Shown: positions 1-3,567 of the stretch, one piece after another
How the letters are laid out: each line of letters begins with the position of its first letter
Position numbering within the stretch: the first letter of the stretch is position 1
Assembly (NCBI GenBank): GCA_018651745.1
Contig: JABIDL010000011.1
Location: 1-64,000, forward strand
Direction of reading: 5' to 3'
DNA: 64,000 bases
From: Candidatus Neomarinimicrobiota bacterium
Lineage (GTDB): Bacteria; Fidelibacterota; Marinisomatia; Marinisomatales; TCS55
The notes under the pieces: generated by a model
The model's database searches: none
What the model was told of the DNA's origin: nothing
What the model saw: only the letters and a program-made list of their open reading frames with translations
Translations under genes and position numbers: made by a program

Positions 1-140
1 ATCATTTCATCTAAAGTGTCGAAATAGGCGGTGACTGCTTTTTCAATCAAATAGGTTCGTGTCCTTTCCAAAACACTTCCGTAGTGATCCAAATCAGCCA
101 AAATATTTTCATCCATTCTTATATTGATTAGTTTCTTCAT
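1..140 (-). CDS. Ribbon-helix-helix (CopG-type) regulator, C-terminus cut by window edge
   Basis: The minus-strand frame from ATG at 140 stays open to the window edge, giving 46 residues that begin MKKLINIRMDENILADLDHY. A short basic beta strand (KKLINIRMD) followed by two helices with a turn (LDHYGSVLERTRTYLIEKAV) is the layout of ribbon-helix-helix DNA-binding proteins, often antitoxins or autorepressors. An AAAAGG ribosome site lies 7 bases upstream. A second, broken gene start of the same family lies near 5.7 kb. The downstream partner, possibly a toxin, is outside the window, so an antitoxin role is only a guess. Confidence 0.7.
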   Translation of the reverse strand, partial: MKKLINIRMDENILADLDHYGSVLERTRTYLIEKAVTAYFDTLDEM

Positions 141-182: not shown

Positions 183-256
183 CGCACTACAATCAATTAT
201 TGATTAGTCAAAAAAATAATTTCACTTAAAAAGAGACACCAACGGTAAAAAGAGTT

Positions 257-322
257 CTTTGAGTGTAACGTCCACCCCGAAGCAAAAAAGCCCTCTTTCG
301 AGGGCTTTTTAGTTTATATAGA
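257..322. repeat. Copy 1 of a ~65 bp intergenic repeat ending in a hairpin
   Basis: On the plus strand the segment starts CTTTGAGTGTAACGTCC, continues with a CCCG-AG block and ends in the GCCCTC/GAGGGC hairpin and an AT-rich tail. The same order, with an identical 17-base leader, recurs at 3501-3567. Both copies lie just beyond the 3' end of a minus-strand gene. Confidence 0.7.
285..310 (-). terminator. Bidirectional rho-independent terminator
   Basis: An 11-bp perfect stem (AAAAAGCCCTC with GAGGGCTTTTT) encloses a TTTC loop and has T tracts on both strands. It lies 17 bases after the stop of the minus-strand gene that ends at 328 and so closes the TetR/hydrolase operon. Confidence 0.85.
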
Positions 323-327
323 TAAAG

Positions 328-1797
328 CTATTTCATAAGAACCATCTTTTTAACTGAATGAAATTCTCCGGCCGAAATTCGATATAAATACATCCCTGCG
401 CTTACTGGCTGTCCTAAATTGTTGGTGGCATTCCAAACAACTGATTTATAGCCGGCACTTTGTTGATTGTTAACCAATGTTCTCACTTCACGTCCCATAA
501 TATCATATATCATAATAATTACTTGTGAGTTTTCAGGTAAGTCATATCGAAGGGTTGTGGTTGGATTAAATGGATTTGGATAATTTTGTTCTAAAGATAG
601 TTGTGTTGGCAAGATATCAGTTGGTTCATCAACATTCACTTCGGCTTCGGCAAACCAAATTACTGGCGAGGCTGCATAATATGATTCCGGATCATCTATA
701 TTAAGGGCATTTCCCACGGTATCGATACTTTCAGTAACCGTATCATATATTCTCATATGTCCTGGAATTAGTATCATTCCTCCAAAAAGCCATTCGTTAA
801 ATACAACTTTTGTTCCATCTGGTGACCATGATTGACCCATGGCAATAGACGCAAAATTATCACCGCCAAAATAACCAAGATAGGAAGATTCATTGGAAGC
901 AATATCATAAATCCAATGTTCATTACTACCTAGAGTATCACTACAGGTGGTATAAACAAATTTATCTAAATCAGTTTCTTTTGTTTTTAAAATAGATGGT
1001 ATACAATAATAGCCTATTTCACCTGTGCATGGATTATCTGTTAATTGCGTTATATAGCCATAAGTACTGTGTATTCCAAAAAGTTGAGCACAATTATTAT
1101 CATCAAGAAAAGTTAAGTAAATAAAACCATTATCACTCCAAATCGGGTTATTAACCCAAATGCCGTTTCCACTAATAACTAAATAAGGGATTGTGGCTAA
1201 TATGGTTGTTTCACCGCTTTCAATGTCAGCTACAATTACATCAACGTCCATAAAATAATCTTCCGTGTCTTCATCTTCAGTTAGTTTAAAATAGAGTACC
1301 TGTTGTCCGTTCGGTGAAAGTGCCATATTATCAAAAGCGGAACTCAATGAGTCACTTAACATTGTGATTGAACTATCAGCAAAAGAATATTTATATAATT
1401 GCCAATTTGAATATTGAGATCCTTCCATATATAGCACAATATTTTCATCATGGGTAAATCTTGGATTTGTCGGATAAATACCGGTTATTGAACTGATGGT
1501 GTCCGATGTTTCAGTATTGTAAATACTAAAACTCACTGGTCCAAGCTGATCCCAACCCATATTTCCAATTAGTTCATAATTAACGTATAATAATTTGGTA
1601 CCGTCTTCAGAAAGATCGGAATATCGAACGTCTTCTAATATTATTTCATTGACAGATCCATCGGGTGAAATTCTGTTCACGCTAAAATCCATTCCCACAC
1701 CCCATTCGTAGTTCGTCATATTGTTGAAATAAATCCATTCTTCCGATTGCGAAAGACAGAAAGATGTCAGTATTGTGATAAGTAATATATTTTTCAT
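328..1797 (-). CDS. Secreted TolB/PD40-type beta-propeller protein with C-terminal sorting domain
   Basis: A 489-residue exported protein. An N-terminal signal peptide (about 1-18, ending in SQS) is followed by a body with WD40-like/PD40 propeller motifs, for example ALSPNGQQVLYF and SWSPDGTKVVF, the repeat style of TolB-like propellers. The last ~85 residues form a type 9-like sorting domain with NYPNPFNPTTT, a YDIMGREVRTL strand and a KKMVLMK end. It is the last gene of the TetR/polyester-hydrolase operon, 18 bases after the hydrolase, so it may act on or bind the same extracellular substrate; that link is inference. No catalytic motif is visible. Confidence 0.8.
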   Translation of the reverse strand: MKNILLITILTSFCLSQSEEWIYFNNMTNYEWGVGMDFSVNRISPDGSVNEIILEDVRYSDLSEDGTKLLYVNYELIGNMGWDQLGPVSFSIYNTETSDTISSITGIYPTNPRFTHDENIVLYMEGSQYSNWQLYKYSFADSSITMLSDSLSSAFDNMALSPNGQQVLYFKLTEDEDTEDYFMDVDVIVADIESGETTILATIPYLVISGNGIWVNNPIWSDNGFIYLTFLDDNNCAQLFGIHSTYGYITQLTDNPCTGEIGYYCIPSILKTKETDLDKFVYTTCSDTLGSNEHWIYDIASNESSYLGYFGGDNFASIAMGQSWSPDGTKVVFNEWLFGGMILIPGHMRIYDTVTESIDTVGNALNIDDPESYYAASPVIWFAEAEVNVDEPTDILPTQLSLEQNYPNPFNPTTTLRYDLPENSQVIIMIYDIMGREVRTLVNNQQSAGYKSVVWNATNNLGQPVSAGMYLYRISAGEFHSVKKMVLMK

Positions 1798-1815: not shown

Positions 1816-2805
1816 TTACAACCCAGCCATAATAAAATTAACCATCGTGGAAACATCCAACATATCGATTGAATCATCACCATTAAAGTCTGCAAGGCCA
1901 TTATAACTTGAACTGTTTATAATTAAATCAACGATCAAGAGAACATCAAAGATATCAATCGATTCATCACTATTTAAATCACCCACAGTTTGGCACTCCA
2001 CATTTGTAGCAAAAATTGAAGCTGATGGCGGAACTTCTAATAACACATCGCAATTGGAGGGATCGTTGCGAACAAAATTTTCGATCCAATACAAGGCTTT
2101 TAAACCCATGTCCACATTATTGTTAGGATTTGTTACAGTCCAATGGCTCCCGCCTGCAATCTCAAATAATAATTTATTTGTTGTTTCTGGGGTGAATGCA
2201 AAAAAGACATTTGTATGCTGAACATTTGGGGCATCTTCATCATTTTCACCACTGATAAATATTACAGGGACATCTATGTTTAAAATCTCAGGTGAAGCAT
2301 ATTCACTTTCTAACCATGGTGCTAAAGCCAATACCGATTTAAGAGATGAATCCAAACTGGCTGCCAACAAAGCTCCACCTCCACCTTGAGACCAACCGCC
2401 AACTGCTATTTGTTCAAGGGCAAGATTGCCAAATAAGGGTGATTCAGTTCTGTCATTTTCTTCTTCAATTGTGACAATCCCATCCAGCAAAGCATACGCT
2501 CTTAGCATTGGGAATTCCCAAATCCAATTCACATTTACAAACATAGTCACAATACCATAAGATGCCAAAAAAGGTCCCCACGTTTCTATAGATGAAATAA
2601 GCCTCATGAAACCGGGGACCATAACAATCGTTGGAAATGGACCTACAGCATCAATTGGATAATAAACAATTCCGCTTTGATAATCAGGCCCATTTCTTAA
2701 TCCGTCCGCTTCTGTAATTATACCCACTGAATATGGCCCATCTGCAAACAAAAATGTTTGAAATAGTAAATATCCCAACATAATAAGATTTTTTTTATGT
2801 CTCAT
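1816..2805 (-). CDS. Secreted PETase/cutinase-type polyester hydrolase with C-terminal dockerin-like domain
   Basis: A 329-residue alpha/beta hydrolase with a signal peptide (1-21). It matches what I know of the bacterial cutinase/IsPETase family in order: YYP near 48-50, VPGF (oxyanion residue F66 where PETase has Tyr), SSIETWGPFLASYG at 71-84, nucleophile S139 in GWSQGGGG, W164 in APW at the PETase W185 position, D189 in GENDEDAP and H221 in GGSH. Cys252 and Cys271 fit the family's conserved C-terminal disulfide; the extra PETase-specific disulfide is absent (Gly186). Residues 274-328 form two dockerin-like calcium repeats (DLNSDESID and DFNGDDSID). It sits 8 bases after a TetR gene. Family is confident; activity on synthetic polyester is unproven and natural polyesters such as cutin-like or storage polyesters are equally possible. 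Confidence 0.85.
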   Translation of the reverse strand: MRHKKNLIMLGYLLFQTFLFADGPYSVGIITEADGLRNGPDYQSGIVYYPIDAVGPFPTIVMVPGFMRLISSIETWGPFLASYGIVTMFVNVNWIWEFPMLRAYALLDGIVTIEEENDRTESPLFGNLALEQIAVGGWSQGGGGALLAASLDSSLKSVLALAPWLESEYASPEILNIDVPVIFISGENDEDAPNVQHTNVFFAFTPETTNKLLFEIAGGSHWTVTNPNNNVDMGLKALYWIENFVRNDPSNCDVLLEVPPSASIFATNVECQTVGDLNSDESIDIFDVLLIVDLIINSSSYNGLADFNGDDSIDMLDVSTMVNFIMAGL

Positions 2806-2813
2806 GAATTAGA

Positions 2814-3404
2814 TTAAATCTGAGCATCCTTTATTAGTCGCTCAAACATAATCCATGCTCTGTTTTCAGCTTGTGGATCATTTAACAAATGGGATGAATA
2901 GTGGTAAGATGGGAAAATAGCCAGAAATTCAAATGCAAATAGATTGATATCCAGATTCTTTCGAAATTGCCTTTCTTCAACTGCTATACCAGCAGCTTTT
3001 TCTATAAAGTTAATCCAATATTTTTGATGGGAGACTAAAAAATTCCTAACGGGACCCGGCCTACCCTCAAATTCAATAGTTGCAGTATGTATCATACAAC
3101 CCCCTGGCATAAATCCTGAATTATCCCAGGTCAGTATATTTTTTGCAAGCGCTCGGATTCTTGGCTCCCCTCTTCGCACCTTTAATGATGGCTCTATAAC
3201 AATTTTCGAAAATTTCTCTACGACAGCTTTTAATAAATCTAATTGCAACTGTTCCTTAGAATTAAAATGTGCAAAAAGTCCACTTTTAGACATACCCACA
3301 GCTTTTGATAATTTTCCAATAGTTAATGCTTCAAACCCTGTTGTACTAGCCATGAAAATGGCTTCATCCAAAATGGTCTCTCGTGTATAATGTCCTTTAT
3401 TCAT
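2814..3404 (-). CDS. TetR/AcrR-family transcriptional regulator
   Basis: A 196-residue protein with the N-terminal TetR helix-turn-helix (about 24-50: LTIGKLSKAVGMSKSGLFAHF) and a ligand-binding helical C-terminal half of a common TetR subgroup with a GGCMIHTA motif near 100. It is the first gene of a three-gene operon with the polyester hydrolase and propeller protein, and a perfect palindrome lies 15 bases before its start. The simplest model is an autorepressor that releases the operon when it binds a substrate-derived ligand; the ligand is unknown. Confidence 0.88.
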   Translation of the reverse strand: MNKGHYTRETILDEAIFMASTTGFEALTIGKLSKAVGMSKSGLFAHFNSKEQLQLDLLKAVVEKFSKIVIEPSLKVRRGEPRIRALAKNILTWDNSGFMPGGCMIHTATIEFEGRPGPVRNFLVSHQKYWINFIEKAAGIAVEERQFRKNLDINLFAFEFLAIFPSYHYSSHLLNDPQAENRAWIMFERLIKDAQI

Positions 3405-3418
3405 GGCGCCATTTTAGT

Positions 3419-3430
3419 ACGAACGTTCGT
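3419..3430. promoter_or_regulatory. Probable TetR operator
   Basis: ACGAACGTTCGT is a perfect 12-bp palindrome between the TetR start codon (3404) and a TATAAA box on the minus strand (3431-3436). TetR-family operators of the form AACG-CGTT are common. Its position directly after the -10 box fits repression of the TetR/hydrolase operon. Confidence 0.7.
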
Positions 3431-3500
3431 TTTATACAATAGTTTTTAAATCATTGGACGAAGAAATATGGATAAATAAATCATTACACCAAAATGGGGG

Positions 3501-3567
3501 CTTTGAGTGTAACGTCCCTCCCGCAGACTAAAAAGCCCTCAATATGAGGGCTTTTTTATTTATAGAA
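3501..3567. repeat. Copy 2 of the ~65 bp intergenic repeat
   Basis: Shares the identical leader CTTTGAGTGTAACGTCC, the CCCG-AG block, the GCCCTC hairpin and the following ATTTATAGA-like tail with the copy at 257-322. It lies between greA and the TetR operon in the same orientation as copy 1. Confidence 0.7.
3530..3557 (-). terminator. Bidirectional terminator downstream of greA
   Basis: AAAAAGCCCTC pairs with GAGGGCTTTTT around a five-base loop; T-rich tracts lie on both sides. It sits 75 bases after the greA stop codon on the minus strand. Confidence 0.8.

Follow-up and report, generated by a model that had tools for sequence, protein, structure and literature searches.

The window (the whole 64,000-nt stretch of DNA analysed here) covers the initial 64 kb of a contig 96.6 kb long, part of a 1.86-Mb genome that is 95.8% complete. 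Near its left end, genes for a TetR-family regulator, a PETase-family secreted hydrolase and a surface beta-propeller-like protein lie head to tail on the minus strand with gaps of 8 nt (TetR/PETase) and 18 nt (PETase/propeller), and terminator hairpins flank the three-gene unit on both sides (Table 1). These genes form one operon in the window and are presumably co-transcribed. An earlier note on this DNA had described a unit of two genes; the 8-nt spacing of TetR and PETase given there is right, but the propeller gene, which follows the PETase gene after 18 bases, belongs to the unit as well. A contig-edge fragment at positions 3-140 (minus strand; MKKLINIRMDENILADLDHYGS...) adjoins the cassette and, judged by eye, resembles a ribbon-helix-helix (CopG-type) antitoxin.

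Table 1. Positions and basis of assignment of the features of the TetR-PETase-propeller locus.
Feature	Position	Strand	Basis
TetR-family regulator (TetR_N + TetR_C_13), 196 aa; first gene of the operon	2814-3404	-	ORF list + Pfam
Secreted alpha/beta hydrolase of the PETase family (PF12740), 329 aa, with a dockerin at its C terminus	1816-2805	-	ORF + Pfam + alignment + model
PETase parts: signal peptide; catalytic domain; Cys pair; dockerin	residues ~1-21; 22-250; C252/C271; ~273-329		signal peptide by inspection
Dockerin type I tail of PETase, two F-hand repeats, DLNSDESIDIFD and DFNGDDSIDMLD	1819-1989	-	Pfam; helices 285-296 and 315-326 in model
Third gene of the operon: beta-propeller-like surface protein carrying a T9SS sorting domain at its C terminus	328-1797	-	ORF + Pfam
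Operator (perfect palindrome of 12 bp, ACGAACGTTCGT), located at -26 relative to the TetR start	3419-3430	.	upstream-region alignment
Putative promoter: TTGTAT (3439-3434), 17 nt holding the operator, TAAAAT (3416-3411)	3411-3439	-	upstream-region alignment; inference
Direct repeat, left copy (core TTTGAGTGTAACGTCC at 258-273), with terminator hairpin 285-310	247-313	+	
Direct repeat, right copy (core at 3502-3517), with terminator hairpin 3530-3556	3491-3556	+	

The hydrolase matches the Pfam profile PF12740 with 138.3 bits (gathering cut-off 28), and in a PDB sequence search its closest solved chain is 7PZJ (E 4.7e-64), which is PET30 of Kaistella jeonii (PMC8767016). Its AlphaFold model, made from an alignment of 21 sequences (the window protein and relatives), has a pLDDT of 91 and superposes in VIA-align on PET30 with Z 40.2 and an rmsd of 1.6 Å over 253 residues and on IsPETase with Z 37, a cutinase-type alpha/beta fold. 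Alignment and model place the triad S139-D189-H221 in a G-W-S-x-G context; Ser139 and His221 do not vary across 20 relatives, Asp189 is retained across the entire nearest clade, and the C252/C271 pair is invariant in the alignment. The earlier note's assignment to the PETase/cutinase-like hydrolases is borne out by the profile match, the triad and the fold comparison, the last of which it had proposed as a check (a structure lacking the cutinase cleft would have spoken against the assignment, and the model has the cutinase-type fold); its residue numbers (S139, D189, H221, F66 and Q140) are exact and the conserved C-terminal Cys pair that it described is present. Identity as a BHET hydrolase (NCBIfam NF051441) was considered and rejected (89 bits against a curated cut-off of 520).

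The further claim, that the triad sits in the exact PETase sequence context, stands for the triad but not for its surroundings. The contact residues Y87, M161, I208 and S238 of IsPETase correspond to F66, Q140, D191 and W222 in the window enzyme, and the second disulfide C203-C239, found in the IsPETase lineage only, is absent, its positions being taken by Gly186 and Thr223; IsPETase W185 and W159 are preserved as W164 and W138. Where type I/II PET hydrolases have the Tyr-Met-Trp substrate motif (as defined in PMC8767016), the window PETase has Phe66-Gln140-Trp164. At the position of Q140 the relatives compared have Met (20), Ile (7), Thr (5) or Leu (1), so that Gln is unique to the window protein; Q140, W222 and D191 were none of them seen at these positions in the aligned close relatives, and no paper using the term M161Q came up when the literature was searched for a Gln in place of M161 of IsPETase. 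A sequencing error as the source of Gln140 was rejected because CAA and ATG differ at all three codon positions. Q140, W222 and D191 may narrow or redirect the cleft, which we count against the explanation preferred below.

Among characterized enzymes, the window PETase is closest to PET30 (PDB 7PZJ; 43% identical) and PET27, bacteroidetal PET-active esterases (PMC8767016) with which it shares the fold, the triad, the C-terminal Cys pair, the absence of a second disulfide, secretion and a C-terminal accessory tail. In PET30 and PET27, however, that tail is of the T9SS/PorC kind and the motif is F-M-Y or F-M-W, whereas the window enzyme carries a dockerin, has F-Q-W and a Trp after the catalytic His, and sits in a TetR operon. 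IsPETase, LCC and Cut190 (type I/II PET hydrolases, cutinases) have the same fold, triad and equivalents of W159 and W185; relative to IsPETase and LCC (about 31-33% identity) the window protein shows Y87F, M161Q, I208D and S238W, lacks C203-C239 and has the extra dockerin. The PETase-like proteins of five Neomarinimicrobiota genomes (G168, G170, G147, G155 and G090) are 47-54% identical and have the same dockerin-type tail but, unlike the window, Met at the Q140 position and no adjacent TetR gene. A maximum-likelihood tree pairs the window PETase with that of genome G075 (support 100/99), places both inside a Neomarinimicrobiota clade with those five (100/99) and separates this clade from PET30 and other solved enzymes. 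Homologues at E <= 1e-45 are present in 19 of 245 genomes of the phylum, and none was found at that threshold in the 39 other members searched of the window's family (f1). The PETase type is not new in this phylum, since 47 Marinimicrobia homologues of PET27/PET30 were reported already in 2022 (PMC8767016). The TetR-less PETase-like genes of G168, G155, G170 and G147 (loci L041-L045) lie amid other dockerin-tailed secreted proteins, and in the last three of these genomes a tandem GAPDH-like pair adjoins the PETase-like gene.

The cassette of G075 (contig C46, JABIHN010000007.1, MAG SI053_bin69) repeats the order TetR, 8 nt, PETase, with an identical operator and a propeller downstream, and was the sole find of a peptide-pattern scan of further genomes. 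It differs from the window in its W-M-Y motif, Ser at 222, an additional Fib_succ_major gene that separates PETase from propeller, and other flanks. Identity between the two PETases is 82% for the whole protein and 84% within the catalytic domain; their dN of 0.11 and dS of 0.47 indicate purifying selection over the whole gene. Five contacts were defined as the non-catalytic residues matching the substrate contacts listed in PMC8767016; four of them differ (window/G075 F/W, Q/M, W/Y and D/E) and W138 is common to both, compared with 32 changes over the 224 other positions (Fisher p 0.0023), and with position 222 added the count is five of six (p 0.0004), both values coming from one pair of sequences. 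The changes at contact residues suggest an altered substrate specificity, to the extent that a single pair of sequences can.

The regulator matches the TetR_N HTH profile with 38.3 bits and the C-terminal ligand domain TetR_C_13 with 80.2 bits (Pfam). It has orthologues, 63-73% identical, in G075, G140, G125 and the same-genus genome G001, and a 44%-identical relative in G049. The window, G075, G140 and G001 all have the palindrome ACGAACGTTCGT exactly 26 bp before the start codon, and G125 has it with two mismatches, while the upstream DNA around it is mostly dissimilar between the genomes aligned; with one mismatch allowed, the copy upstream of the window's TetR gene is the only one in its genome. 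A TetR gene 8 bases before PETase with its own palindrome is thus present as the earlier note had stated, and TetR control of the cassette is likely. In the aligned upstream regions the operator is followed by 2 nt, a TAnnnT-type hexamer, 6 nt and ATG. A -10 hexamer ending 6 nt before the ATG would imply a leaderless mRNA, and the simplest reading of the arrangement would be a repressor that occludes its own promoter, with a leaderless transcript. The term "dedicated" applied to this regulator has to be given up, because in other genomes the orthologue and the same operator (near-identical in G125) head other cargo, the propeller directly and no PETase in G140 and G125 and a SnoaL-like gene in G001, and because the operon in the window has three genes. 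The TetR is a local and probably autoregulatory regulator with varying cargo. At the G049 locus (L068:4793-6329) the 44%-identical TetR gene is followed by another alpha/beta hydrolase gene, and an operator-like site (two mismatches) is present near its start. A Fib_succ_major-domain gene with a dockerin-like N-terminal repeat also occurs inside TetR cassettes (L040:7223-7972 and L065:1528-1842), complete in G075 and as a shortened relative in G140.

The window genome and G075 belong to different GTDB families, and dS between them is 0.47 for PETase and 0.49 for the propeller; for four other reciprocal-best genes it is 1.5, 2.1 and, in two cases, saturated, in a comparison covering about 9% of the window's own genome and 12% of G075 that gave 12 pairs, some of them not orthologues. 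The genes flanking the G075 cassette are unlike those in the window, and G001 keeps the GreA-like neighbour with no cassette beside it. The three genes are bracketed by a direct repeat of 60-70 nt that consists of a 16-nt core, TTTGAGTGTAACGTCC, and a terminator hairpin; no third copy of the core was found in the 1.86-Mb genome at 0-1 mismatch, and recombination between repeated terminators is one possible mechanism. Because of the low dS of PETase and propeller, the missing PETase in the rest of the family, the unrelated flanks and the bracketing repeat, the three-gene operon looks horizontally acquired and is probably mobile. Its parts do not have a single history, since TetR has a dS of 1.07 between the window and G075, and G075 has more TetR identity with G140 (78%) than with the window (73%); the operon is a mosaic, and this counts against our best explanation. 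A phage origin was rejected, as PETase gave no tblastn match in the phage collection.

The tail of the PETase matches Dockerin_1 with 27.9 bits in the protein and 31.6 bits in the frame (cut-off 22.9, Pfam) and contains two helices in the model, so that the two-repeat dockerin-type tail of the earlier note is real. No Por_Secre_tail match, and thus no T9SS sorting domain, was found in the PETase (Pfam); the downstream propeller has one. As regards passage of the enzyme through the outer membrane, the missing T9SS tail counts against the explanation preferred below. By inspection, positions 10-11 of the repeats are Ile-Phe and Met-Leu and not the clostridial Ser-Thr, another point against the best explanation, and these positions are hydrophobic in most other dockerin tails compared. 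The same note considered such a module unusual in a pelagic lineage, a view that finds no support in view of dockerin matches in 124 of 200 Neomarinimicrobiota genomes (at least 30 per genome in most of family f16); dockerin-tailed PETase-family proteins are common and normal in the phylum, and dockerin-tailed exoenzymes are routine there. Cohesin matches number 1-9 per genome. Over the 200 genomes, 98 have both domains, 26 dockerin only, 33 cohesin only and 43 neither, which gives a co-occurrence odds ratio of 4.9 with shared ancestry not controlled; in family f1, among the matches listed, long cohesin ORFs occur only in dockerin-bearing genomes.

The window's own genome (G000) has six dockerin matches, four of them above the cut-off (PETase, a C25 peptidase, a PAD-family protein and an Fn3-type protein) and two, an esterase and a subtilase (S8), below it. 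The search for cohesin domains proposed in the earlier note turned up a single protein of 1129 aa that combines five cohesin-like modules with a T9SS tail (Por_Secre_tail; L047:14364-17753, equal to G000:C11:78364-81753), about 76 kb from the PETase gene on the same contig. Modelled with a pLDDT of 87, the first two of these modules each reach a TM of about 0.78 against cellulosomal cohesins; this likeness came from a fold search, the PDB sequence search with the protein having returned FlgD alone, for its tail. No carbohydrate-binding module was found on this protein and no glycosidases among the dockerin proteins scanned (Pfam). The closest published parallel is Ca. Stygibacter (Cloacimonadota), for which a cellulosome-like complex of C25/S8 dockerin enzymes and a cohesin scaffold with a T9SS-type tail has been proposed (PMC8542988). 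Dockerin C25/S8 proteases and a multi-cohesin T9SS-tailed protein are common to both, but the Stygibacter scaffold has CBMs and is accompanied by dockerin glycosidases, neither of which was found in the window genome, where an esterase is among the cargo. Literature searches found no paper naming both Marinimicrobia and dockerin, nor both SAR406 and type IX secretion.

On balance we slightly favour the explanation that the locus is a horizontally acquired three-gene exoenzyme operon, switched by TetR, whose esterase is held at the cell surface by its dockerin. The TetR-family repressor would bind the single operator in the spacer that separates the -35 hexamer of its own leaderless promoter from the -10 hexamer, and an effector would free it, so that TetR, the PETase-family serine esterase and the surface propeller would be made together. 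Exported by its signal peptide, the esterase would cleave esters by means of Ser139-Asp189-His221 in an open cutinase-type cleft, the likely targets being particle-borne natural polyesters, cutin-like material or lipid esters in preference to synthetic PET. The calcium-stabilised dockerin tail would then hold the enzyme at the surface, probably docked to the genome's one multi-cohesin T9SS-tailed protein beside other dockerin-tailed hydrolases. Assembly of the PETase on a cohesin scaffold is thus a plausible candidate arrangement, and the 33 of 200 relatives that have cohesin without dockerin and the 26 with the reverse count against it.

It is a serious contender, though somewhat short of an even chance, that the dockerin-type tail is instead a generic sorting or calcium-stalk module of the phylum, interchangeable with a T9SS tail and docking to no cohesin. 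Such exchange is seen in the propeller, whose tail is T9SS in G000 and G075 and dockerin in G140 and G125, and in the PETase family, where the tail is dockerin in most genomes and T9SS in G093 and G078; dockerins at 30 or more per genome against 1-9 cohesin matches, the 26 genomes with dockerin and no cohesin match, and the hydrophobic positions 10-11 in most tails fit this reading too. The associated presence of the two domains (relatedness not controlled), the five-cohesin T9SS protein in the window's own genome and the distribution of long cohesin ORFs among the f1 matches listed argue the other way. Since tails are swapped, dockerins outnumber cohesins and the recognition positions are hydrophobic, we regard a plain sorting or stalk role as about as likely as scaffold docking. 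Rather less probable is that the PETase acts on soluble or lipid esters as a promiscuous carboxylesterase and has no useful activity on polymers: the bacteroidetal relatives PET38, 53, 57, 58 and 59 (motifs F-M-A, F-M-W, F-M-Y and W-M-Y) are inactive on PET (PMC8767016), and Q140 and the bulky W222 change the cleft, yet PET30, the nearest solved relative, acts on polycaprolactone and PET foil (PMC8767016), and the cutinase-type fold, secretion and surface tail suit a polymeric substrate.

The favoured three-gene operon is compatible with a further reading, to which we give nearly even weight, in which TetR and the surface propeller are the core and PETase is replaceable cargo inserted between them. 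In the cassettes of G140 and G125 the propeller comes directly after TetR, only those of G000 and G075 include PETase, and the dS of 0.47-0.49 is common to PETase and propeller while that of TetR is 1.07; against this, four such cassettes are known, and loss of PETase from the other two is equally possible. The interpretation first put on the locus, namely a polyester-degradation system that has a dedicated ligand switch and is unusual in this lineage, now appears improbable. The PETase fold and the TetR gene 8 nt upstream with its own operator agree with it, but G140, G125 and G001 have this TetR and operator type unaccompanied by PETase, the dockerin-tailed PETase-family genes of G168, G155, G170, G147 and G090 lack the TetR, and Marinimicrobia homologues had been published (PMC8767016). 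The enzyme type is therefore already on record for the phylum; the TetR cassette and the altered active site are new details, and we found no earlier description of this probably mobile TetR operon.

A bolder combination of these elements, which we think unlikely as a whole, would be a mobile, repeat-bracketed exoenzyme cassette with a conserved TetR-operator head and exchangeable surface cargo and tails, one cargo being a PETase whose contact residues have been replaced far faster than the rest and which is displayed on a non-cellulosic cohesin scaffold carrying proteases and esterases for particle degradation. In abundant marine bacteria that have not been cultured, enzymes of the PETase family are candidates for natural polyester degradation, and the cassette offers a testable switch of one operator and one TetR. 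The window and G075 proteins constitute a natural, 82%-identical enzyme pair differing at four of five substrate-contact positions, and the five-cohesin T9SS-tailed protein is a defined candidate scaffold. The first two cohesin modules of that protein are 36-73% identical in relatives.
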